From positions 1 to 20,670 of IMG/VR virus record IMGVR_UViG_3300042897_000399: a stretch of DNA of 20,670 nt; one strand, written 5' to 3'. Every line of letters starts with the position of its first letter. The stretch's first letter is position 1. Below are positions 4,875-19,643 of the stretch, in pieces. Made by a program: the position numbers and the translations under genes. This stretch comes from a virus. The notes under the pieces were generated by a model. The model saw nothing but the letters and a program-made list of their open reading frames with translations, was not told where the DNA came from and made no database searches.

Positions 4875-5046
4875 AGATAGCCTCGTCAATCTCCTTCACA
4901 ATCGCATCGCGCTCGTACCATAGCCCTACGATCACGAGCTCAATGAGCGCCGCCCGTTGCGGGGCGGCCTCAATGAGCTCGCCAGATAGGTCAGACATAG
5001 CGCGGGTAATGCCGTCAATCTTCTTGCACTTTTCTTCGAGCGTCAT
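4867..5046 (-). CDS. small hypothetical protein (59 aa)
   Basis: A short, mainly helical protein (MTLEEKCKKIDGITRAMSDL ... IELVIVGLWYERDAIVKEIDEAIYA) with no motif I recognise. It may form a helical hairpin or dimer through the hydrophobic middle (ALIELVIVGLW). The ATG at 5046 overlaps the preceding stop as ATGA and has GAGGCGG upstream. An in-frame reading back to 5094 would intrude into the paralogue gene and is not needed. It ends by overlapping the RlpA-like gene, so the two are probably co-translated. Confidence 0.65.
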   Translation of the reverse strand: MTLEEKCKKIDGITRAMSDLSGELIEAAPQRAALIELVIVGLWYERDAIVKEIDEAIYA

Positions 5047-5303
5047 GATCGCGCCGCCTCGATCCCCTCGCGGTAGGCCGCGATCATCATGCACGCCTCG
5101 CGCTTAGTCTTAGCCGTGTAGCCCGCCGCTAGGCGACGTAGCCCGCCGCCGTCGTTAATCTGCTCAAATAGCGCGAGCGCCCCCGTAGAATCTACCGCCC
5201 GTAGTTGGTACGATCCTACGCCGCCCGCGACGGGTACGCCCGCCGCCCTGCATAGCCCTATGAGGGCGCGCTGCACGTCGAGCTTGGTGTATCGGTACGC
5301 CAT
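5043..5303 (-). CDS. small phage protein, paralogue of the gene at 5308-5610 (86 aa)
   Basis: The pattern is an N-terminal helix (TKLDVQRALIGLCRAAGVP), a strand region (GSYQLRAVD...ALFEQINDGGGLRRLAAGY) and a C-terminal helix (KREACMMIAAYREGIEAAR). The same order occurs in the next gene upstream: RDIDEALMALNITAGL, then GSYYVIGAYGGWQLVQVMGDTGGVRSI, then ATAREILDAISAYRSGMAAGR. The two genes look like a tandem duplication of one small-domain family. That family is familiar to me from hypothetical proteins of phages with high-GC hosts, with no known role. The ATG at 5303 is preceded by AAGGGGGTAGCATC. Confidence 0.7.
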   Translation of the reverse strand: MAYRYTKLDVQRALIGLCRAAGVPVAGGVGSYQLRAVDSTGALALFEQINDGGGLRRLAAGYTAKTKREACMMIAAYREGIEAARS

Positions 5304-5307
5304 GATG

Positions 5308-5610
5308 CTACCCCCTTACCGCTAGTCTACCTGCGGCCATGCCGCTGCGGTAGGCGCTGATGGCGTCGAGAATCTCCCGCGCCGTAGCGTATCCCTGCGT
5401 AATGGATCGCACGCCGCCCGTGTCGCCCATTACCTGCACGAGCTGCCAGCCGCCATACGCCCCTATGACGTAATAACTGCCGATAATCCACGCTTGCCCG
5501 TCATGCGGGGCGCTTGCCGCAACGTCGTGCGATAGCCCCGCCGTAATGTTGAGCGCCATAAGCGCCTCGTCAATGTCGCGCCGTGTAGCTCGATACTTTG
5601 CCCTTGCCAT
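5308..5610 (-). CDS. small phage protein, paralogue of the gene at 5043-5303 (100 aa)
   Basis: It shares with its downstream neighbour an initial helix with an R-D-[IV]-x-x-A-L core, a GSY strand and a GG-x-R loop. Both also have a G-Y segment and a terminal helix ending AYR-x-G-[MI]-x-A-[GA]-R. It is slightly longer through an insert after the first helix (SHDVAASAPHDGQAW). Function is unknown. The ATG at 5610 lies in an 18-base segment identical to the start region of the gene at 6204-6536 (GGGGGTGTAATCATGGC read on the minus strand), so ribosome site and start were probably duplicated or copied together. Only 4 bases separate it from the next gene. Confidence 0.7.
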   Translation of the reverse strand: MARAKYRATRRDIDEALMALNITAGLSHDVAASAPHDGQAWIIGSYYVIGAYGGWQLVQVMGDTGGVRSITQGYATAREILDAISAYRSGMAAGRLAVRG

Positions 5611-5612
5611 GA

Positions 5613-5915
5613 TTACACCCCCTCGATACTAGCGCGGCATGGATCGCACGCCGCCACAACTACGCCGCCGCACGTGCCGCACGATAGGCCACACCCGCCG
5701 CGATGATCCCCGCCCTCGCGGTATTCTTGCGCCTCGTCTACGTAAATCGGTCTAGGGGTATTATCCCCGCTAGTTTCGCCCGATAGCGTCGCCGCGTCGA
5801 AGCGGCTATCCGCGCACGCCGTGCATAGCCCGCCGCCGTCGAGCGTATAGCCCGCGATCGCCCAAGCTTTGCCCATGTGGGCGCGATTGTATGTCGCCGT
5901 ATAGCCCGCGCTCAT
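5613..5915 (-). CDS. Cys-rich hypothetical protein, putative zinc binding (100 aa)
   Basis: The N-terminal part (TYNRAHMGKAWAIAGYTLDGGGLCTAC) and C-terminal part (GGCGLSCGTCGGVVVAACDPC) carry seven cysteines, arranged as CTAC, CxxxCxxC and CDPC. This predicts one or two zinc knuckles separated by an acidic, disordered middle (SGETSGDNTPRPIYVDEAQEY). Function is unknown. The true start is the ATG at 5915, which overlaps the preceding short gene's stop as ATGA and has AGGGGG seven bases upstream. The longer frame back to 6158 contains Arg-rich sequence in the shadow of the neighbouring gene and was rejected. Confidence 0.7.
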   Translation of the reverse strand: MSAGYTATYNRAHMGKAWAIAGYTLDGGGLCTACADSRFDAATLSGETSGDNTPRPIYVDEAQEYREGGDHRGGCGLSCGTCGGVVVAACDPCRASIEGV

Positions 5916-6082
5916 GCTACACCCCCTGCACGTACCGCCTCGCGGAATAGCCGCACGGCCTCGCGCCGCGTATAGCCCAAGAACAGCCGCGACACATACG
6001 CGCCGCCTACCATCGCGGCGATCCGATAGCCGCCGCCGTTTACGCCCGCCGTGCGGGTGATGGTGAGCTCGATCCTGCTCAT
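5912..6082 (-). CDS. very small conserved phage protein (56 aa)
   Basis: The protein reads MSRIELTITRTAGVNGGGY ... YVSRLFLGYTRREAVRLFREAV. The three parts (an initial strand, a VSRxFxGYTRREA segment and an amphipathic final helix) recur in small phage hypothetical proteins as I know them; no function is established. The ATG at 6082 has GAAGGGGG eight bases upstream, and the TGA overlaps the next gene as ATGA. The FLGYTRREA-helix end loosely resembles the C-termini of the paralogue pair at 5043-5610 (a Gly-Tyr followed by a helix), though this is too short to claim homology. Confidence 0.75.
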   Translation of the reverse strand: MSRIELTITRTAGVNGGGYRIAAMVGGAYVSRLFLGYTRREAVRLFREAVRAGGVA

Positions 6083-6101
6083 GATTACCCCCTTCGATTC
6101 T

Positions 6102-6120
6102 GGCGGGGATTCTCCCCGCC
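6102..6120. other. intergenic GC hairpin with TTC loop
   Basis: GGCGGGGA (6102-6109) pairs with TCCCCGCC (6113-6120) around the trinucleotide TTC. It lies in the gap upstream of the 56-aa gene. It is the smallest of four similar hairpins in this block (also 6161-6187, 6557-6579 and 7051-7076). None is followed by a clear T-tract on the minus strand, so they look more like RNA-stability or processing elements than classical terminators. Confidence 0.6.
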
Positions 6121-6160
6121 CTACGCCATACCCTACGCCTAGCGGCGCGGGGTGTCAATA

Positions 6161-6187
6161 GGGGGCGGCGACGCCCTCGCCGCCCCC
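6161..6187. other. intergenic GC hairpin
   Basis: GGGGGCGGCG (6161-6170) pairs perfectly with CGCCGCCCCC (6178-6187) around a 7-base loop. It lies just after the stop codon of the gene at 6204-6536 on the minus strand, so it is the 3' end structure of that gene's message. No T-run follows. Confidence 0.6.
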
Positions 6188-6203
6188 GTAGCTATGCCGC
6201 CCC

Positions 6204-6536
6204 CTAATAGGCGGGCGGGGTGTCGATTGTAAACGCATACCCCCCTTCGATAGCGCCCGCCGATACGAGAACGGGCGCGTAGGCGTCGCCCTCGTGCCGC
6301 ATGCTATCGAGCAGGGCGAGCGCCGCCGCCGTGTGGCGGCCTAGATCGTCGAGCTCATACGGGTATCCGATGGATACGCGGGGGCGCTTCGCCGCCCCTG
6401 CTAGGCGTGCGACAATCCGCGCCCCGCGGGTATTTGTCGCGCCGTAGTAGCGCGTGATGATCGCGCAATGCGTGCCGCGTACCCGCGACGCTTCGGCGGC
6501 TACCCGTGCCGCGTCGATTGTGTACCCCTTGGCCAT
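6204..6536 (-). CDS. conserved phage hypothetical protein (110 aa)
   Basis: The order AARVAAEASRVRGTHCAIITRYYGATNTRGARIVARLAG, then RVSIGYPYELDDLGRHTAAALALLDSM and EGGYAFTID is familiar from a phage protein family found in many environmental phages. In it the T-R-Y-x-G-x-T-N-T-R-G-[AS]-R-I segment is the most conserved part. The family has no assigned function that I know of; the basic strand could bind nucleic acid. The ATG at 6536 sits in the shared 18-base ribosome-site cassette (6532-6549), identical to that of the gene at 5308-5610. The longer reading to 6668 was rejected because it crosses the hairpin and the next gene. Confidence 0.8.
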   Translation of the reverse strand: MAKGYTIDAARVAAEASRVRGTHCAIITRYYGATNTRGARIVARLAGAAKRPRVSIGYPYELDDLGRHTAAALALLDSMRHEGDAYAPVLVSAGAIEGGYAFTIDTPPAY

Positions 6537-6556
6537 GATTACACCCCCTAAGCTAT

Positions 6557-6579
6557 GGGGGCGGGATTCTCCCGCCCCC
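6557..6579. other. intergenic GC hairpin with TTC loop
   Basis: GGGGGCGGGA (6557-6566) pairs with TCCCGCCCCC (6570-6579) around TTC, a perfect 10-bp stem. It lies between the small membrane-protein gene and the gene at 6204-6536, immediately before the latter's ribosome site. It shares the preceding bases AGCTAT with the hairpin at 7051-7076. Confidence 0.65.
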
Positions 6580-6592
6580 TTCGATTGTACCC

Positions 6593-6754
6593 CTAGCACG
6601 CGTACCCCGCAAGGGGGTAGCACGGGATCGCCAGCGCCCCGATCGTGCCGATAATAAGCGCCGCCCATACGAGGCGGCGGATCATACGCGCACGGCGCTC
6701 CGCCGCTTCATGCTCCGCGATTGTGCGGAGCGATACGATAGGCCGCCCCCTCAT
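6593..6754 (-). CDS. small single-helix membrane protein (53 aa)
   Basis: A basic, helical N-terminus (RGRPIVSLRTIAEHEAAERRARMIRR) leads into one hydrophobic stretch (LVWAALIIGTIGALAIPCYPLAG), predicting a membrane helix with the basic end inside. Function is unknown. The ATG at 6754 overlaps the preceding stop as ATGA and has AAGGGG upstream within the end of that gene. It is the second one-helix membrane protein of the leftward block (the other is at 4131-4295), but they share no clear sequence. Confidence 0.65.
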   Translation of the reverse strand: MRGRPIVSLRTIAEHEAAERRARMIRRLVWAALIIGTIGALAIPCYPLAGYAC

Positions 6755-7029
6755 GATCGCGCCCCTTCGCCTAGCGGCCATACTAGCGCGGGCGTGCCGC
6801 CTAGCTCATCGTGCGTAGCGTTGCCGTGCATGCGCACGGCGGCCAGGAATCGCGCCCGATTGTAGCGCGGGCTAGAATCCTGCAAGCTATCGGCTACGGC
6901 GAGGGCTACCCGATAGGCCGCCCCCGTGCATAGCTCCGCCCGTGCGGGGCTATCCTCGATCGCTTCCACGGCTACGGCGCGGCCTAGCGTTGCCGCCAGC
7001 GCCTCATAGTTTTGTCGCGTCATGCTCAT
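6751..7029 (-). CDS. conserved small phage protein, TRxxY...RARFLAA type (92 aa)
   Basis: The N-terminal MTRQNYEALAATLGRA and the central VADSLQDSSPRYNRARFLAAV match a pattern seen in many phages. It is a short protein opening T-R-K/Q-x-[YF]-E-x-[IL]-A and ending N-P/S-x-[FY]-[DN]-x-x-[RK]-F-[LM]-A-A-[CV]. Its function is unknown, although it is one of the most common early-region small phage proteins. Here an insert and a C-terminal extension of about 25 residues make it longer than usual. Start at 7029 (or 7023) with GAGGAG upstream; the stop overlaps the small membrane-protein gene as ATGA. Confidence 0.75.
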   Translation of the reverse strand: MSMTRQNYEALAATLGRAVAVEAIEDSPARAELCTGAAYRVALAVADSLQDSSPRYNRARFLAAVRMHGNATHDELGGTPALVWPLGEGARS

Positions 7030-7050
7030 AGTTTTATTCTCCTCAGCTAT

Positions 7051-7076
7051 GGGGGGCGGGTACTACCCCGCCCCCC
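7051..7076. other. intergenic GC hairpin
   Basis: GGGGGGCGGG (7051-7060) pairs perfectly with CCCGCCCCCC (7067-7076) around TACTAC. It lies between the genes at 7108-7365 and 6751-7029 and is preceded by AGCTAT, like the hairpin at 6557-6579. It has the strength of a terminator stem, but the following minus-strand bases (ATAGCTGAGG) contain no T-run. Confidence 0.65.
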
Positions 7077-7107
7077 GTGTACCCGCTAGGCGCGGGCGGC
7101 CTCTCAG

Positions 7108-7365
7108 CTACGCCTCGACGGGCGCCCCCGCTAGGCGGGACGCGTCGCGCCCGCCCTTTACGCCCTCGGCGTAGCTACGGGCTAGGGCGGAGAGCCCAGC
7201 GTCCCCACGGTCGAGCACGCTCTGGACGGCGAACATCATCGCCCCCGTAGCGCGGGCAAAGCTTGCGCCCTGCTCCTTCGATCTCGCGGCCTCGAGCAGT
7301 TTAGCCGCCCGATAGCCCATTGCATAGCCGAGCTGGTATGCCTCGGCCTCGGTGTATTCCCTCAT
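7108..7365 (-). CDS. small helical hypothetical protein, first gene of the leftward block (85 aa)
   Basis: The protein is almost all helix: EAEAYQLGYAMGYRAAKLLEAAR near the start, FARATGAMMFAVQSVLDRG in the middle, and LSALARSYAEGVKGGRDASRL near the end. The repeated G-Y spacing (LGYAMGYRAA) is typical of small phage helical proteins of unknown function. The ATG at 7365 follows AAGGGGGTATCCC, the same style of ribosome site as downstream genes; the longer reading to 7410 would extend into a hairpin-containing leader. As the gene next to the control region it should be the first expressed leftward. Confidence 0.65.
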   Translation of the reverse strand: MREYTEAEAYQLGYAMGYRAAKLLEAARSKEQGASFARATGAMMFAVQSVLDRGDAGLSALARSYAEGVKGGRDASRLAGAPVEA

Positions 7366-7485
7366 GGGATACCCCCTTAGTTTTGGGCGGGGGTGTGAGC
7401 TCATGCCCACACTGGCCGCCTATGCATACCCTAACGGCTAGCTAGCCCCTTGCATAGGGGGTAAAGGTTGCAGTTTGGTTGTTGT

Positions 7486-7514
7486 TTGGATAAGTTTTCG
7501 CAATAATCTAGAAT
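7486..7514 (+). promoter_or_regulatory. possible rightward promoter in AT-rich island
   Basis: TTGGAT (7486-7491) and TAGAAT (7509-7514) are separated by 17 bases. The -10 is a five-of-six match and the -35 is weak. No gene follows for about 650 bases, so a transcript from here would be a non-coding or long-leader RNA. The SOS-like palindrome at 7515-7528 lies directly after the -10. A leftward promoter may overlap it (TATTCT on the minus strand), but I could not fix its -35. Confidence 0.35.
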
Positions 7515-7528
7515 AGAACATGTGTTCG
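7515..7528. promoter_or_regulatory. SOS/LexA-like operator
   Basis: AGAACATGTGTTCG contains GAAC-ATGT-GTTC, which fits the Gram-positive LexA (DinR) box CGAAC-RNRY-GTTCG except for the first base. It overlaps the start region of the rightward promoter candidate and lies near the -10 of a possible leftward promoter. A second half-site, TTCGAAC, follows at 7531-7537. It may instead bind a phage repressor with the same half-site. Confidence 0.45.
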
Positions 7529-7675
7529 GTTTCGAACATAGGCCAACGGGCAACGTAGCGGGGCGATAACGGGCGGGGCGGCACTATGTGCCACGGGCAA
7601 GCTATCGAGCCCCTACGGGGCGCGGGGCATGGCCTACGGGGTACGGCCTAGCTTGGGGGGTATCGGGTACGGCTA

Positions 7676-7695
7676 GGGCGGGGGGGTAGCTTGGG
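7676..7695 (+). other. G-quadruplex-forming motif
   Basis: Four G-triplets (7676-7678, 7680-7682, 7684-7686, 7693-7695) are separated by loops of 1, 1 and 6 bases, which satisfies the usual G3N1-7 rule. Longer G-runs nearby (7655-7660 and 7718-7725) provide alternatives. The position is within the non-coding control region. Confidence 0.5.
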
Positions 7696-7756
7696 GGTAT
7701 GGCACGGCCTATGCCATGGGGGGGGTATCGCCCACCTTCGCCCCCCTACCCCCCTC

Positions 7757-7798
7757 GACAATCCCCCTTGTCTTAGCACGACAACCCCCCTTGTCGTG
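7757..7798. repeat. two tandem C-loop inverted repeats (iteron-like)
   Basis: GACAA-TCCCCC-TTGTC (7757-7772) is followed after a short gap by CACGACAA-CCCCCC-TTGTCGTG (7777-7798), a perfect 8-bp inverted repeat around six C. The GACAA units start 23 bases apart, about two helical turns. Together they look like two binding sites for one dimeric protein, or two small hairpins with C-rich loops. Confidence 0.65.
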
Positions 7799-7816
7799 TA
7801 GGTTGCGGATTCTTAA

Positions 7817-7854
7817 CACCCCCCCTCCCCCCGTAGCATGTCTGAGGGGGGGTG
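7817..7854. repeat. strong GC inverted repeat, possible terminator
   Basis: CACCCCCCCTC (7817-7827) and GAGGGGGGGTG (7844-7854) are perfect complements separated by 16 bases. On the plus strand the stem is followed by CGTTTGTG, a weak T-stretch, so it could end a transcript started near 7520. It may equally be a structural element of the control region. Confidence 0.5.
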
Positions 7855-7986
7855 CGTTTGTGATAGGAACACCCAACCCCGCAATGAACACCCCTTCTGA
7901 TAAGGCCACCCCCCTTTTGAGAAGGGTTTCAGCCCAGTTTGTTAACGCAGCCCTGTTAAGTTGTGCTCGACAGCCTCCCTCATAAA

Positions 7987-8004
7987 GATTAAGACATCTT
8001 AATC
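7987..8004. promoter_or_regulatory. 18-bp palindrome upstream of late promoter
   Basis: GATTAAGA-CA-TCTTAATC has perfect 8-bp arms. It ends ten bases before the -35 hexamer TTGACA at 8014-8019. That placement suits a site for an activator or repressor of the rightward operon. As a terminator it would be weak because the stem is AT-rich. Confidence 0.5.
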
Positions 8005-8013
8005 ATGTTATTT

Positions 8014-8045
8014 TTGACATAAACCCCCCGTTTTTCTGGTTATAT
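8014..8045 (+). promoter_or_regulatory. rightward promoter for the late block
   Basis: A perfect TTGACA (8014-8019) is followed 20 bases later by TTATAT (8040-8045), preceded by TGG, which gives an extended -10 type element. The spacer is longer than the usual 17 bases and includes a C-run and a T-run, so the -10 call is tentative. It is the last promoter-like sequence before the first rightward gene at 8162. Confidence 0.5.
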
Positions 8046-8082
8046 GGGGGAGATAAAGAGGGGGCAACGAACTCAACCCTCC

Positions 8083-8131
8083 AGAGACTGGTCTCTCACT
8101 CAATAGAGTTCGCTCTGGCCGCTAGGCCAGA
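8083..8131 (+). ncRNA. structured 5' leader of the rightward operon
   Basis: Three hairpins are packed in 49 bases. AGAGA pairs with TCTCT (8083-8096). AGAG-TTCG-CTCT (8105-8116) carries a stable UUCG tetraloop in RNA. TCTGGCC-GCTA-GGCCAGA (8114-8131) partly competes with the second. The last ends 31 bases before the start codon at 8162. The folds could be alternatives of a switch or a message-protecting leader; no known riboswitch class was recognised. Confidence 0.4.
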
Positions 8132-8161
8132 TTAAGAATGGGGCAACCCAAGGAGTTTAAA

Positions 8162-8689
8162 ATGGTAATGAGAAGGAGTTTGCCAAAGCCGCCACGAGAT
8201 GACGTATATGGTAAGCCAGACCTAGAAGACGTGTATGGCAAGCGAGACCGAAGAGACGTATACCCTGGTCCGACAGACACGATCCGAAATTTTGATCGCA
8301 ACAAGAGGGCTAATCCAAAGCCAAAGCCAAAGCCAGAGCGCCGTCCAGTTGACGAGCGTGGCGTAGTCCGACGTGGGCCAGGCGGCCCAGCTAAGACAGT
8401 TGCGCCAAAGAAGCGCGGCATGAACCGTATGGAAGGACCAGTACGAAAGCGCGATGACTTTGATAAGCGCGGCCCAGTGAAGCCAAAAACCGCAGAAGAG
8501 AAAAAGTTCATCATGGATCAACTGCGAAAGAACCCTAGCCGACCAGATGGTGGGGTTAAGCCTGGCCCTCGTCCTAATAACTCCGCCCCAACTACCCGCG
8601 ATCCCAACCAGCTGCCATTGAGGCCTAAGGGGCCAGGCGGAAGGCCAGGCGGAAGGACCACGCCAGTAATGCCACGACGAGGCCGCTAA
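8162..8689 (+). CDS. basic, disordered Pro/Arg/Lys/Gly-rich protein (175 aa)
   Basis: It is the first gene of the rightward block and its function is not recognised. The sequence is low in hydrophobics and rich in Pro, Arg, Lys, Gly and Asp, with short repeats near the start (DDVYGKPD, EDVYGKRD, RDVYPG) and PKPKPKPERR in the middle. A short helical segment (TAEEKKFIMDQLRKN) is the only predicted order, and the C-terminus is GPGGRPGGRTTPVMPRRGR. It is likely disordered and DNA- or RNA-binding, perhaps a virion-packaged basic protein; this is inference. I chose the ATG at 8162 because AAGGAG lies six bases upstream. An earlier ATG at 8138 has no ribosome site. Confidence 0.65.
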   Translation: MVMRRSLPKPPRDDVYGKPDLEDVYGKRDRRDVYPGPTDTIRNFDRNKRANPKPKPKPERRPVDERGVVRRGPGGPAKTVAPKKRGMNRMEGPVRKRDDFDKRGPVKPKTAEEKKFIMDQLRKNPSRPDGGVKPGPRPNNSAPTTRDPNQLPLRPKGPGGRPGGRTTPVMPRRGR

Positions 8690-11741: not shown

Positions 11742-11947
11742 TGGACGCTGAACTTCAAGCACTCAACAACGCAACGGCTGCTGCCACATTGAGTGGCTTG
11801 CAGGTCACCCTGCTAGATCAGGTAGACGGCGTGTGGACTGCTGGTGCATCGGACGGTTTGTGGAGCGATCCCATCGTCACTGGCACTGGGGCAACTCGAA
11901 CTAAAGCACTAGTCTCCCTGACAGCCGCGCTGGAGTCACGTGACTGA
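11741..11947 (+). CDS. small hypothetical protein after the fibre (68 aa)
   Basis: The function is not recognised. The N-terminus is a short helix (DAELQALNNATAAATLSGLQ). Two strand-like segments with Trp (DGVWTAGASDGLWSDPI) and a final helix (TRTKALVSLTAALESRD) follow. It may be a fibre-associated or chaperone-like small protein by position only. The start overlaps the fibre stop as TAATG, and the end overlaps the next gene's GTG by 8 bases. Confidence 0.6.
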   Translation: MDAELQALNNATAAATLSGLQVTLLDQVDGVWTAGASDGLWSDPIVTGTGATRTKALVSLTAALESRD

Positions 11948-12428
11948 TCTGGCACCAGTCCTCACGGGATGCCACGTCTGCCGCAGCCCGCTGGTTGAGG
12001 CAATTAACAAGAAGATGCGCGACGGAATGTCCGATGTGCAGCTCTCCAAGTGGCTTGCAGACGCTGGTCACTACATCTCCCGCATTACCCTTGGCAAGCA
12101 CAAGCGTGACCACCTTACCGAAGACCACGAACACAAGCGCATCTCTGCCATCAACCACCTTCGCAAGCAGAAAAAGACCATCAAGGCGACGGGCGACCTG
12201 GCAATGCTGGTGCGGGACTACGTACATAGCGCGGTGCAAGACGGGGATTTGACCCCATCGCTCGCAGAGGGCCTTCGCGCACAGGAAATGATTGACCGAC
12301 GACAGGAGAAGGGCGCTGATCGAGAGGTTGCACTGCAACTTGCAGGCATCTTGGGCGGCGGCGCTACCTACCAGATCATTGAGGCAACAGAAATCAAGCC
12401 ATTAGGGGTCGGAGAATCGGAGTCATGA
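11940..12428 (+). CDS. zinc/HTH protein, candidate small terminase subunit (162 aa)
   Basis: The N-terminal CHVCRSPLVEAINKKMRDGMSD...LSKWLADAGHYISRITLGKHKRDHL has the layout C-x-x-C, helix, then a helix-turn-helix ending K/R-H-x-x-x-H-L. That layout resembles DNA-binding, small-terminase-like or regulatory phage proteins. A Lys-rich linker and a helical C-terminal half (LAMLVRDYVHSAV ... AEGLRAQEMIDRR ... ALQLAGILGG) could be an oligomerisation region. A role as small terminase subunit recognising the packaging site is plausible, since none is visible next to terL. It is not proven; a regulator is possible. The start is GTG at 11940, overlapping the previous gene. Confidence 0.6.
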   Translation: MTDLAPVLTGCHVCRSPLVEAINKKMRDGMSDVQLSKWLADAGHYISRITLGKHKRDHLTEDHEHKRISAINHLRKQKKTIKATGDLAMLVRDYVHSAVQDGDLTPSLAEGLRAQEMIDRRQEKGADREVALQLAGILGGGATYQIIEATEIKPLGVGESES

Positions 12429-13244
12429 TTGCGTTCCGCAGCCTTATTGGTACTTCTGGTCGCAGTAAGCCTTGTTCTTCCAAGAATTGCACGTGCAGAC
12501 CAGCAGGAAATTTGGTGCGGGGGAACGAATCCGTACACGGGGGAATGGCAACTATGGGGTCCATTCTGGTGGGCGGACGAGCCAGCCGAAGAACTGTGGG
12601 TGAGACTGTGCCTACCAAATCGACCGTGGGATCCGATTCCGTGGGAACCGAACCCAACGCCGAGCGCGAGTGTGGAGCCTAGCCTTGAGCCGACACCAGA
12701 GCCTACACCCAGCCCGACGCCTGAGCCGACGCCAGAGCCAACACCAGAGCCGACTCCGACTCCGACTGAAGAGCCGACGCCAAGCCCTACGCCAGAACCG
12801 ACTCCTACTCCGACGCCTGAACCAACGCTACAACCAACTCCAGAAGCTACGCCAACTCCTACCAGAACTCCAACTGTAACTCCGAGTGAGCGACCATCAC
12901 CAACTCCAACGAGAACTCCAGATCCTAGTCCAGAACAAAGCGGAACGCCGACTCCAAGCCCGACTCCAAGCGAAGAAATCACTCCGAGTCCTGAACCAGT
13001 TCCAAGTCCTAGCGTGGCTCCTGAAGGGCCAGCGGACGCAGTAGCAGAGGCTGTTGGCGAAGCAGTCGCAGCAATTTCAGAAAGCATCGGGGAAGCGATT
13101 ACTGCGGTAACCACCCTAGGCAAAGATCTCTCGGTCGAGGAGAAAAAGCAGGCTCAACCAGTTGCGGTGGCAATCATCGTAAGCCAGGTAGCCCAAGCAG
13201 CAGCGGCTGCTGTCGCAGCCTCCAACACAGGGAGAAAGAAATGA
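12429..13244 (+). CDS. secreted or membrane-tethered protein with Pro-Thr stalk (271 aa)
   Basis: A signal peptide of about 23 residues ([22 protein letters not shown]) ends before DQQ. A small Trp-rich domain with two Cys (C30 and C61) follows, then a long Pro-Glu-Thr-Ser repeat stalk at about 75-205. The C-terminal helix is Ala-rich ([27 protein letters not shown]), and a hydrophobic stretch near the end ([22 protein letters not shown]) precedes RKK. Function is unknown. The position before a holin-like and an endolysin-like gene suggests a lysis accessory (spanin-like or wall-contacting), but spanin features are not clear. The TTG at 12429, with GGAG seven bases upstream, is the only start that gives the signal peptide. 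Confidence 0.65.
12690..12890 (+). repeat. Pro-Glu-Pro-Thr coding repeat
   Basis: A short unit (GAGCCGACGCCA and variants, encoding EPTP) recurs about fifteen times in the stalk region of the gene at 12429-13244. The copies vary at third positions, so the array is probably ancient or under protein-level selection rather than a recent slippage expansion. Confidence 0.75.
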
Positions 13245-15620: not shown

Positions 15621-15919
15621 TGCCCAAGAGTGCTGCATGGCAACGCAAGGAAGGCAAGAATCCGCAGGGCGGACTCAATGCCAAGGGTCGCGCGTCCTAC
15701 AAGGCGCAGACTGGCGGTACACTGAAGGCTCCAGTCAAGAGCGGAGATAACCCGCGACGAGCTTCATTCCTCGCCCGTATGGGCGGTATGCCTGGTCCAG
15801 AGCGTGACGCGAAGGGTCAACCGACACGCTTACTCCTTAGCCTTCAGGCTTGGGGTGCCAGCAGCAAGACGGATGCCCGTGCAAAGGCAGCCGCGATCAG
15901 CAAGCGCAACAAGGCTTGA
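15620..15919 (+). CDS. DUF6321-like small basic phage protein (99 aa)
   Basis: The opening PKSAAWQRKEGKNPQGGLNAKGRASYKAQTGG is the signature of a domain of unknown function seen in many environmental phages, which I recall as DUF6321. The rest (KSGDNPRRASFLARMGGMPGPERD ... KAAAISKRNKA) continues the same pattern, including the R-[RK]-x-S-F-x-A-R-M-x-G segment. It is basic and low in hydrophobics, so probably nucleic-acid binding or virion-linked; its role is not known. The ATG at 15620 overlaps the previous stop as TAATG with AAGGAG upstream. Its stop overlaps the terL start as TTGA. Confidence 0.8.
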   Translation: MPKSAAWQRKEGKNPQGGLNAKGRASYKAQTGGTLKAPVKSGDNPRRASFLARMGGMPGPERDAKGQPTRLLLSLQAWGASSKTDARAKAAAISKRNKA

Positions 15920-17415
15920 AGCAACTAGCCAATGAAGTTGCGGTCGATCTGGCTCGTGGTCGCTCTGACATCGAGTTCTTTGCTCGCAGGTGGCTTGGCA
16001 TCCAGGGGAATCCTGGGCAGGTTGCATGGTGGAAGTCCTGCTCCGAGCGCGATGACTCTGGGTACCGACCGAAATACATCACAACCGTCGTATCCGCTGG
16101 CAACCGTGCGGGCAAAACGATGGCAATGGCGGTGGTCTGTTTCCACCACGCCTTGTACAAACTGGGACTTCCAAACCCGAAATATGGTGATTCCCAGTCC
16201 CACCTTGCGTGGCTAGACTCTCCCTATGACTGGTTCCACATCGGTATCCAGCAGGAGACCGCAGAGCTAGTCTTCCGAGAAATTGAGACCATCCTCACTG
16301 GCCAGCACCCCGCCCAAAAAGGTCGTGGTTGCCCGATGGTCAAGGAACTTGGTAAGATCGTAGAGACCACCAAGAAGTATCGCGGTGAGTATCCGTGGAT
16401 CAAGTTCAACCCTATCGTGGGCGGAGCGAGCATCCACTTCCGAACTACACAGGATCGAGCCAAGGCTCTCCTTGGTAAGGACATGAACGGCATCTCGTTT
16501 GACGAAGCGGCGTTTGAACCCCATTTGCTCATGATCTACCAAGAAGTGCTAAACCTACGGCGACTCTCTACTGGTGGGCCACTCCACTTCATTGGAACGC
16601 CGACTGAGGGGTTCAACGAATACGCGGACCTGTGGGAGAAGGGCAACCCAGAGAACCCAGCCCGCGACGACAAGTTCATCTCGTTCCGATTGTCTACCCG
16701 TGACAACATCGGGTACGGGTTAACCCAAGAGAACTTTGATGATGTTGTTCGCCAGCAGGCTGAGTACCTCATCCCCCAGAACATTGACGGATTCTTCATT
16801 GAGGCTAGGGACGCATTCTTCTGGTCCCAGTCCATTCAGGCAGTATTCAAATCAGGAGTCGCAGAGTTAGGCCCGACACGTCACCATAAGTATGTCCAGG
16901 GTGTAGACCCAGGGATTTCACATGACGCAACGTGGGCGATTACACTCGACATTACTGACAGAAAACTCCTTCGCGGCACGCGGATTAGAAAGCGTGGCGG
17001 CAAGCAGAGCATCTCTGCCGTCGTGAACATGGTCCGCGAAGGACACCTCCTATACCAGCAAGACGGTGCGTACTGCACCACCATCGTCGATTCCACAGGA
17101 CTCGGTGGACGACTATTTCAGCAGGAGTTCAGCATCATCCGCCCGCTCCGAGGGTTTGACTTCGGTGGGACCAAGGCGAAGAAGGTGGAACTGCTCAATG
17201 ACTTGAAAGCGGTCCTAGACAAAGGACAAATCGAACTGCCAACTGGCGGTGCGTGGGATGAGATGCGCAGGCAACTCCTCACCTACAAATTGGATGATAA
17301 GAAGCTGGAGCAAGATGCAGTGATGGCACTGGCCATTGCTGTGCGACACGCTTTGCGAAACCCAGAGAAGCCCGTGAACGATCCAGTGTTCACATATTTT
17401 GGAGTGAGTGACTGA
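15916..17415 (+). CDS. terL: terminase large subunit (499 aa)
   Basis: This packaging motor cuts concatemeric phage DNA and drives it into the prohead using ATP. Walker A is GNRAGKT at 62-68; Walker B is GISFDEA at 192-198 with Asp196 and Glu197; the coupling motif IGTPT is at 226-230. The nuclease domain carries GVDPG (Asp331), VDSTGLG (Asp392) and EQDAVMALA (Asp467), three acidic positions expected of an RNase H-like active site. The length is in the usual range. The start is taken as TTG at 15916, which overlaps the previous stop as TTGA. Its ribosome site is weak, so coupling is likely; the farther in-frame TTG at 15850 would overlap the upstream gene by 70 bases. The portal gene follows directly. 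Confidence 0.93.
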   Translation: MKQLANEVAVDLARGRSDIEFFARRWLGIQGNPGQVAWWKSCSERDDSGYRPKYITTVVSAGNRAGKTMAMAVVCFHHALYKLGLPNPKYGDSQSHLAWLDSPYDWFHIGIQQETAELVFREIETILTGQHPAQKGRGCPMVKELGKIVETTKKYRGEYPWIKFNPIVGGASIHFRTTQDRAKALLGKDMNGISFDEAAFEPHLLMIYQEVLNLRRLSTGGPLHFIGTPTEGFNEYADLWEKGNPENPARDDKFISFRLSTRDNIGYGLTQENFDDVVRQQAEYLIPQNIDGFFIEARDAFFWSQSIQAVFKSGVAELGPTRHHKYVQGVDPGISHDATWAITLDITDRKLLRGTRIRKRGGKQSISAVVNMVREGHLLYQQDGAYCTTIVDSTGLGGRLFQQEFSIIRPLRGFDFGGTKAKKVELLNDLKAVLDKGQIELPTGGAWDEMRRQLLTYKLDDKKLEQDAVMALAIAVRHALRNPEKPVNDPVFTYFGVSD

Positions 17416-19643
17416 TGGCCGACAAGGTACGAAAGATCCCCGCAGCGTTCGAAGGAACGCGGGCGATTCCAGCGCAGTACACGACTGACCCTGATATCGC
17501 CACGCCTGAGCAGATTGCTTCTATTGGCTCTGCCACCGAGAAGGCTCGTAAACTAGCCAAGGGTCAGCGTATCGTTGCGGCTGCCGCTGCTGGTAAGCCA
17601 ATTGCCACCGCGCCAGTATTCAACAATATCACCATCAACAAGCAGGGTTCAGTCAAGGGCCAGGCAAACCAGTCAATTGCTGGCGGTGCTGGCATCGGCA
17701 TCAACGACCCATCCATCACGGCGCGAAACCGCGCCTCTACGCGCATCAAGCCGAACTTTGAGAAGCTCACCCTTGGCGAACAGGCTTCCGTCAAGATGTC
17801 CGAGACTTCCCTCAGCGGTCAGGGGATTGACCCAAGCAAGGACGAAGCACACCTTCTCCTTCAGGAAATCCTTGGTCGCAAGCAGTTGGTGGAGCCAGAG
17901 CAGAACCGCCTACGTTCACTCTTCCGCCGCATGGACAACCTCTACCACCCAGAGACCATCACCCTTGGCGGTGCTGACCACTGGGCAGATGACCCAAGCG
18001 CACGGCTCGCTGGTCGAGCACACGTCTCGGTCAACATCCACCACGCCTATGTCCAGATCCCAGCCTCCATCCAGGCTGTGCGACCAGTCGTCAACTATGT
18101 TGCCACTGGACCAACCCCCGAAGAGCGCGATGCCGCGCAACTGCGCGAGCGACTCTACTTCCGCTGGTGGGATGCCAACGAGATGGACTTGCTCCACGAG
18201 CACGCCGCGCTTCTCAAGGAACTTTATGGCCACACGGCGGCAAAAGTGTACTGGGATCCAGTTGCCGAACTGCCAAAGATCAGCGTCATTGAACGACCAG
18301 AGAACCTTTACCTTGGGTTCGGTGATAGCGACTTCAATCGCCTAGACTGGGCGCTCTACTGCTACGGTATGTCTCCGCAGTCAGTCCAAGAGGACTACGG
18401 CGTTGAGGTCATCCCTGTCAAGCAGGGCGACAAGTATTTCCCATACACCACCCGTGGCACACACGATGACCCAATCGGCAACGTGTGGTCCAACACCTTT
18501 GAGCGCAATCCGCTCCGCCGCGAGACTGCCTACGAGCAGATGCAGGTTGAGGTCTACGACTACTGGTACAAGGTGCCAACCAAGCCAGGTAAGGCTCCGC
18601 TCGTGTACAACGCAATCTTTGTCGGCAACTCGCTGGTGAAGAACGACGCGCACCCAGAATATCAGGGACAGATCCCGTATGTTCACCTACCAAACGGCAA
18701 GATCCCTGGTAGCCCATACGGTAAGCCAGCACTCTACGATGCTGAGCAGTTGCTCCGAGAGAAGGACGAGCGAGTCACCGCCATGGCGCAGATGATTCAG
18801 TCCATCGTCGGTGGGCAGATGTGGCAGCTCGTTGGGCCAGAGGCTCCTGATGAGGTACCGCCAAACGCGCTACCAAAGCCAGGCCGCGTCGCAACCCCTG
18901 GACCTGGCAACGAACTTCGTGCCATCCAGCCGTTCATTCCATCGTTCCAGATTGAGCAGTACATCGGTCGTATCGACCGAGAACTTGCTGTGGCAACGGG
19001 ATTGAACGACCTGCTCCTTGGTCTTGCACCAGCGCAGGTACTTGGTTCGTCACGAGCCATCGCCGCGCTCATCGCTAACTACGAAGCACGCCTTGCCCCT
19101 AAGCGCAAGGTGTTCTACCAGTGGATGCGACAGGTATGGGAGATGTGCGCCCGCATCTGGGAGATCAAGAATCCAGCCGTTGCCGAGATCATTGGCGGTC
19201 AGTACCGCATTGACATCGTTGCGCCAGAACTGACGCCGCGAGACACGCTGGAACTTGCCAGTACCGCGATCAACCTTGTCCAGAACCGACTGTGGAGCGC
19301 CGAGCGTGCCATGGATCGAGTGGGCGTGGAAGATCCGATTGGCGAGAAGGATCTCATCCGTGATGAGCAGACTGATGCCACACTGAACCCTGCCGCCGTC
19401 GCCACGATGTCGCAGGTCATGCAGCAGATGGCCATGATGCAGCAACAGCAGGCGATGATGTCGCAAGAACAAGCTGCGAATGCCCAGCGAACGCTCCAAC
19501 AGGGCGTTCCTGGGAGCCAGTCTCTAAACCAGCCAGAGAACCAGGCGCAGTTGCCGCCTGAAGCCATGCCAGAAAACGCCGCAGCGCCAGGAGAAGAGAA
19601 CCTTGTCCCAGCGCCGACTGGCACCAATGAGGTACCTGCATAA
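17415..19643 (+). CDS. portal protein (742 aa)
   Basis: The portal forms the dodecameric ring through which DNA enters and leaves the capsid. The order after terL with a TGATG overlap, the large size, and the central region identify it: LLLQEILGRKQLVEPEQNRLRSLFRRMDNLYHPE, VNIHHAYVQIPASIQAVRP, the wing/stem segment around QIEQYIGRIDRELAVATGLNDLLLG, and SRAIAALIANYEARLAPKRKVFYQWM. An N-terminal extension of about 130 residues, low in order (AKGQRIVAAAAAGKPIATAP), is unusual. The C-terminus has a Gln/Met-rich helical tail (MQQMAMMQQQQAMMSQEQ) and a Pro/Gln-rich end, as in several podovirus-like portals where the tail forms a barrel inside the head. Confidence 0.88.
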   Translation: MADKVRKIPAAFEGTRAIPAQYTTDPDIATPEQIASIGSATEKARKLAKGQRIVAAAAAGKPIATAPVFNNITINKQGSVKGQANQSIAGGAGIGINDPSITARNRASTRIKPNFEKLTLGEQASVKMSETSLSGQGIDPSKDEAHLLLQEILGRKQLVEPEQNRLRSLFRRMDNLYHPETITLGGADHWADDPSARLAGRAHVSVNIHHAYVQIPASIQAVRPVVNYVATGPTPEERDAAQLRERLYFRWWDANEMDLLHEHAALLKELYGHTAAKVYWDPVAELPKISVIERPENLYLGFGDSDFNRLDWALYCYGMSPQSVQEDYGVEVIPVKQGDKYFPYTTRGTHDDPIGNVWSNTFERNPLRRETAYEQMQVEVYDYWYKVPTKPGKAPLVYNAIFVGNSLVKNDAHPEYQGQIPYVHLPNGKIPGSPYGKPALYDAEQLLREKDERVTAMAQMIQSIVGGQMWQLVGPEAPDEVPPNALPKPGRVATPGPGNELRAIQPFIPSFQIEQYIGRIDRELAVATGLNDLLLGLAPAQVLGSSRAIAALIANYEARLAPKRKVFYQWMRQVWEMCARIWEIKNPAVAEIIGGQYRIDIVAPELTPRDTLELASTAINLVQNRLWSAERAMDRVGVEDPIGEKDLIRDEQTDATLNPAAVATMSQVMQQMAMMQQQQAMMSQEQAANAQRTLQQGVPGSQSLNQPENQAQLPPEAMPENAAAPGEENLVPAPTGTNEVPA

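Follow-up and report, generated by a model that had tools for sequence, protein, structure and literature searches.

The replication origins of Ceduovirus, the lactococcal phages of the c2 type, are proven and lie in a non-coding gap that separates the early operon from the divergent late one; they also replicate plasmids. The sequences of these gaps fall into types without similarity to one another, and a non-coding transcript is believed to be required at these origins (PMC7150918). SPP1 offers a second model, as its theta origins oriL and oriR combine initiator repeats with a DnaB-family helicase (PMC6316719).

The locus described here shares several features with Ceduovirus, namely a non-coding gap of approximately 0.6-0.7 kb, flanked by an early and a late operon that diverge from it, and a helicase in the early operon (PMC7150918; MH779521, MH779520), and a gap sequence that occurs in types lacking similarity (PMC7150918). 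It was found in a window of 20,670 bp, which constitutes the whole of an IMG/VR virus record. The gap is bounded by the last minus-strand ORF (7108-7410) and the first plus-strand ORF (8138-8689). The minus operon carries a gene for a DnaB-type helicase (602-2128) and the plus operon those for TerL (15850-17415) and the portal (17415-19643), and from this gene content the former is presumed to be early and the latter late. Within the minus operon, the GC-rich early region at 4900-7400 is composed of small, fast-changing ORFs made of recurring words, several of which are without relatives in distant members of the family. The plus operon includes an ORF of 271 aa (12429-13244) with a long proline/threonine/glutamate repeat of the PTPEPT type.

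The window belongs to a family of uncultured phages with genomes of approximately 40-41 kb, the size of its seven complete-length relatives. Relatives of the TerL were encoded in 147 stretches, and 80 IMG/VR contigs were kept. Exact overlaps of head and tail of 127, 123 and 27 bp in three contigs are consistent with circular assembly. A search of the TerL against 50,697 phage records gave no match at the limit used, the portal gave only two weak matches in phage records, both to Gordonia phages, and the DNA of 7400-8200 gave no similarity match in them. No relative of the TerL was found in genome contigs, and therefore no host is assigned.

The preliminary description had reported a sharp change of the plus strand from G-rich to C-rich within the gap, and both counts and shuffles bear this out. 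The left block (7560-7728) contains 80 G against 38 C, a skew of +0.356, with nine G-runs of at least four and one C-run. The right block (7729-7920) contains 37 G against 79 C, a skew of -0.362, with nine C-runs of at least four and one G-run. A further C-run at 8024-8029, beyond this range, is part of the promoter-like element of the plus operon. Measured as left-minus-right skew over 170 bp and 190 bp, the switch tops out at position 7725 with a value of 0.473, the largest in the window, the next distinct peak being 0.366 at 12682. None of 1000 dinucleotide shuffles of 7411-8137 matched the observed value. The switch itself is marked by the plus-strand element GGGTATCGCC (7723-7732), the family form of which is GGGTRNCRCC.

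The gaps of Ceduovirus differ in this respect. They have a G+C content of approximately 30% and a local switch of the opposite sign (-0.173) in both records analysed. The change from C-rich to G-rich in the gaps at 6983-7595 (L223) and 6575-7259 (L224) is unusually strong, as only 0.0005 and 0.0002, respectively, of the sampled genome positions are as extreme. The use of skew polarity as a criterion for Ceduovirus is a comparison made here, not a published one.

The switch segment is overlapped by two mechanically called ORFs, one of 66 aa and one of 89 aa. Towards its 3′ end the longer ORF has an in-frame part that can be aligned in relatives (18 rows, some with indels), and codon positions 1, 2 and 3 vary there in 24, 25 and 23 columns. 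Given this equal variation nothing suggests coding in the gap, and a protein-coding function was ruled out.

Relatives of the region were gathered by the exact promoter-like pattern TTYCTGGTTAWATGGGGG, which was found in 32 stretches; members with an altered promoter were missed, since the exact pattern selected the relatives. The 21 distinct regions that were kept, the window's own included, each hold at least 420 bp upstream of this pattern. All 21 have the motif GGGTRNCRCC at the switch, with the promoter-like pattern following 283-349 bp downstream; the motif was derived from the same sequences in which it is counted. Skew is positive in the left block of 20 regions, the exception being L113, and negative in the right block of every region. 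The switch is the strongest in its locus, among the positions sampled, in 19 of the 21; in L018 and L113 it is reached by 0.0002 and 0.0082 of positions, respectively. The comparison with related phages thus shows the segment to be conserved, with switch, motif and palindromes kept.

What is conserved in the left block is composition, its sequence being hypervariable. The median identity of left-block pairs is 0.625, barely above the 0.604 of shuffled pairs, which indicates that composition persists while the letters turn over. The promoter block (-60 to +20) has a median pair identity of 0.80. This turnover, together with the repeated words seen in window-like members, might suggest that the skew has no function of its own, the blocks being a fast-changing spacer of repeated GC-rich words produced by slippage or recombination, with function confined to the flanks. 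Such an explanation is considered unlikely, as the sign of the skew is positive in 13 of the 14 clusters formed by left blocks at 0.70 identity and is kept even in members made of different words (L032, L038 and L208). Divergent gaps in general also seem to be without such a switch: among twelve gaps of at least 300 bp from 54 unrelated phage contigs the highest value is 0.29, and most do not exceed 0.19, in a rough control whose crude ORF caller missed the family's own control gap in 10 of 10 family loci.

Directly to the right of the switch, two or three palindromes of the form GACA-N8-TGTC are found in 17 of the 21 regions, always as 16-mers with a centre spacing of 22-23 bp. In the window they lie at 7757-7772 and 7780-7795, the arms of the second reaching 7777-7798 and the centres being 23 bp apart. 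The GACA form is absent from four regions, of which L065 and L208 carry ACCTGAG-N5-CTCAGGT in its place and L038 and L113 carry neither. In the seven complete-length genomes it is confined to the control region, apart from one extra copy in G011, and G018 has none. The number of TGGCAC-N5-GTGCC palindromes varies among relatives. Further to the right lie an inverted repeat, CACCCCCCCTC...GAGGGGGGGTG (7817-7854), which includes the conserved CCCCCCTCCCCCCGTAGC, and a conserved plus-strand block, AGGAACACCCAACCCCGCAATGAACACCCCTTCTGATAAGG (7865-7905), with no sign of coding. No intrinsic terminator was found at the switch by the terminator scan, and an Rfam search of the window returned zero matches. 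A symmetrical G-quadruplex model is not supported, as the standard four-run motif near the site is on the minus strand in six of the seven complete-length genomes and on the plus strand in one.

The plus operon is preceded by a conserved promoter-like element on the plus strand, TTGACA...CTGGTTATAT (8014-8045), which was missed by the sigma-70 scan. The palindrome GATTAAGACATCTTAATC (7987-8004) is situated directly upstream of it. Close to where the minus operon starts is the dyad GAACATGTGTTC (7516-7527), one of the GAAC-N4-GTTC dyads, which have a LexA-like form of Gram-positive hosts. Such dyads occur in seven of the 21 regions, either on the side of the minus promoter or at about -180, hinting at SOS-linked control.

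Downstream of the promoter-like element, the plus operon has a structured 5′ leader at 8068-8130. Of 29 distinct leaders, 28 have a perfect long-range helix of 7-10 bp, which occurs in three sequence forms; the helix is missing from L103, the contig of which ends there. In the hairpin that follows the helix, CCGCTAGG is invariant and the stem enclosing it varies, being either CTGG/CCAG or CCAG/CTGG. The leader has no match in Rfam and one well-paired copy per genome. It is apparently an RNA element of a kind so far undescribed, perhaps with a role in antitermination or leader control.

These elements permit a close rival to a replication function. The palindromes may be operators through which a regulator, encoded by the phage or by its host, switches between the divergent promoters of the early and late operons, with replication starting elsewhere. 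The lambda-type system has tandem operators between divergent promoters, and lambda OR is a cooperative operator array with comparable spacing. The two or three dyads described here, 22-23 bp apart and between divergent operons whose promoters are predicted, resemble such an arrangement, and the TTAAG-N4-CTTAA palindrome, which in 17 of the 21 regions immediately precedes the plus promoter-like element, approximately 44 bp upstream of the promoter-like pattern, points the same way, as do the GAAC-N4-GTTC dyads in seven regions. In contrast to the lambda-type system, the gap holds no ORF of its own and no repressor gene, and neither an HTH_3 protein, the only repressor fold searched for, nor an integrase was found in any of the seven complete-length relatives. 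Over 200 bp also separate the GACA palindromes from the plus promoter-like element, and operators would leave the hypervariable, composition-keeping G-rich block unexplained. A purely transcriptional role is regarded as somewhat less likely than a region that contains the origin.

The switch had initially been proposed to mark an origin of replication or a packaging site. For the second of these (a cos site, a pac site or terminal repeat ends), an excess of contig ends is one argument: of 26 TerL contigs extending as far as 8050, 10 stop within the next 550 bp or so, against 7.6% expected (binomial p 1e-5 versus the rate further right), the ends being placed by nearest alignment, with a weak anchor in L042 (24 bits) and with the promoter motif used for L038, where the alignment anchor was spurious. 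The near-complete contigs G001 and G004 also break here, with exact overlaps of 27 and 123 bp. However, in 12 of 32 motif contigs the ends, which are contig ends and not virion ends, precede the promoter-like motif by 15, 34, 61, 104, 139, 167, 169, 195, 212, 282, 475 and 522 bp, and this scatter over approximately 500 bp argues against one fixed packaging end. In addition, G019 closes as a circle through its 127-bp overlap and breaks elsewhere, and the TerL gene is approximately 8 kb distant. Strain variation together with the G- and C-runs would account for the assembly breaks and is probably the simpler cause. The packaging proposal is therefore weakly disfavoured, and a packaging site at this position is thought very improbable. 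The 162-aa protein encoded at 11940-12428 was considered as a small terminase and set aside, its model being too poor for a fold search (mean pLDDT 46).

For an origin, the argument from skew is not supported. In the seven relatives of approximately 40-41 kb, the cumulative GC skew drops across the minus operon and is then mostly flat, and its minima are scattered (34453, 13166, 19517, 7709, 8275, 33828 and 20045). Gene orientation by itself would lead one to expect such a change of slope, which provides no independent origin signal. Third-codon skew has no step in the plus operon, and the site lacks the genome-scale change of sign that characterises a skew-marked bidirectional origin. At a bidirectional origin the leading-strand skew normally has the reverse of the order G-rich left, C-rich right, and the local feature is therefore not the usual replication-driven mutation bias. 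The absence of a genome-scale skew change combined with a lack of conservation had been expected to count against the proposal; no independent skew change was seen, yet conservation is clear.

There is good support for a conserved site without coding function that works between the divergent operons, and this part of the initial proposal stands. An origin is plausible, given the Ceduovirus-like position, the evenly spaced palindromes, the phage-encoded DnaB-type helicase and the fact that no phage DNA polymerase was recognised among the ORFs scanned. The resemblance to oriL and oriR of SPP1 lies in repeated sequences that look like binding sites and in a phage helicase of the DnaB type (PMC6316719). 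Unlike in SPP1, the repeats consist of two or three palindromes without an adjacent AT-rich unwinding element, the nearest 40-bp windows with an AT fraction of at least 0.65 starting at 7971-7991 and 7471-7491, and a gp38/gp39-like protein was not recognised in this phage. The only DnaA-box-like 9-mer with one mismatch is at 7485, and no initiator or loader protein was recognised in the ORFs scanned. The 255-aa protein encoded beside DnaB was considered as an initiator and set aside, having no confident fold match and no convincing Pfam family.

The preferred reading, with a probability of roughly 0.45, is that the segment, lying between the early and late operons, acts in cis as a control region and most likely holds the replication origin. 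Replication would then start at the segment, with the palindromes binding an initiator and the skew serving to load the helicase. A dimeric protein is envisaged to bind the two or three GACA-N8-TGTC palindromes beside the switch, where a spacing of approximately two helical turns would place the dimers on one face of the DNA. Opening of the DNA at the switch would allow loading of the DnaB-type helicase outward on either side. If the forks are bidirectional, the strands encircled by the helicase, plus to the right and minus to the left, would both be C-rich, G-poor and little structured, and the complementary templates would carry the G-runs. The need for G-poor helicase strands could be the reason that composition, rather than sequence, is kept. 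In a variant of this mechanism the origin would be RNA-primed, as in lactococcal phage c2, and a phage initiator would not be needed. A stronger form, regarded as rather doubtful, holds that the strand composition is itself selected: the origin or initiation zone would be set by the switch from G-rich to C-rich, the short motif and the spaced palindromes, leaving the sequence free to turn over as long as the helicase-loading strands stay G-poor.

The region provides a candidate origin that is open to testing, in a family of uncultured phages with a terminase unmatched, at the limit used, among the phage records searched. The retention of strand composition without that of sequence bears on how phage origins and control regions may be recognised where alignment fails.
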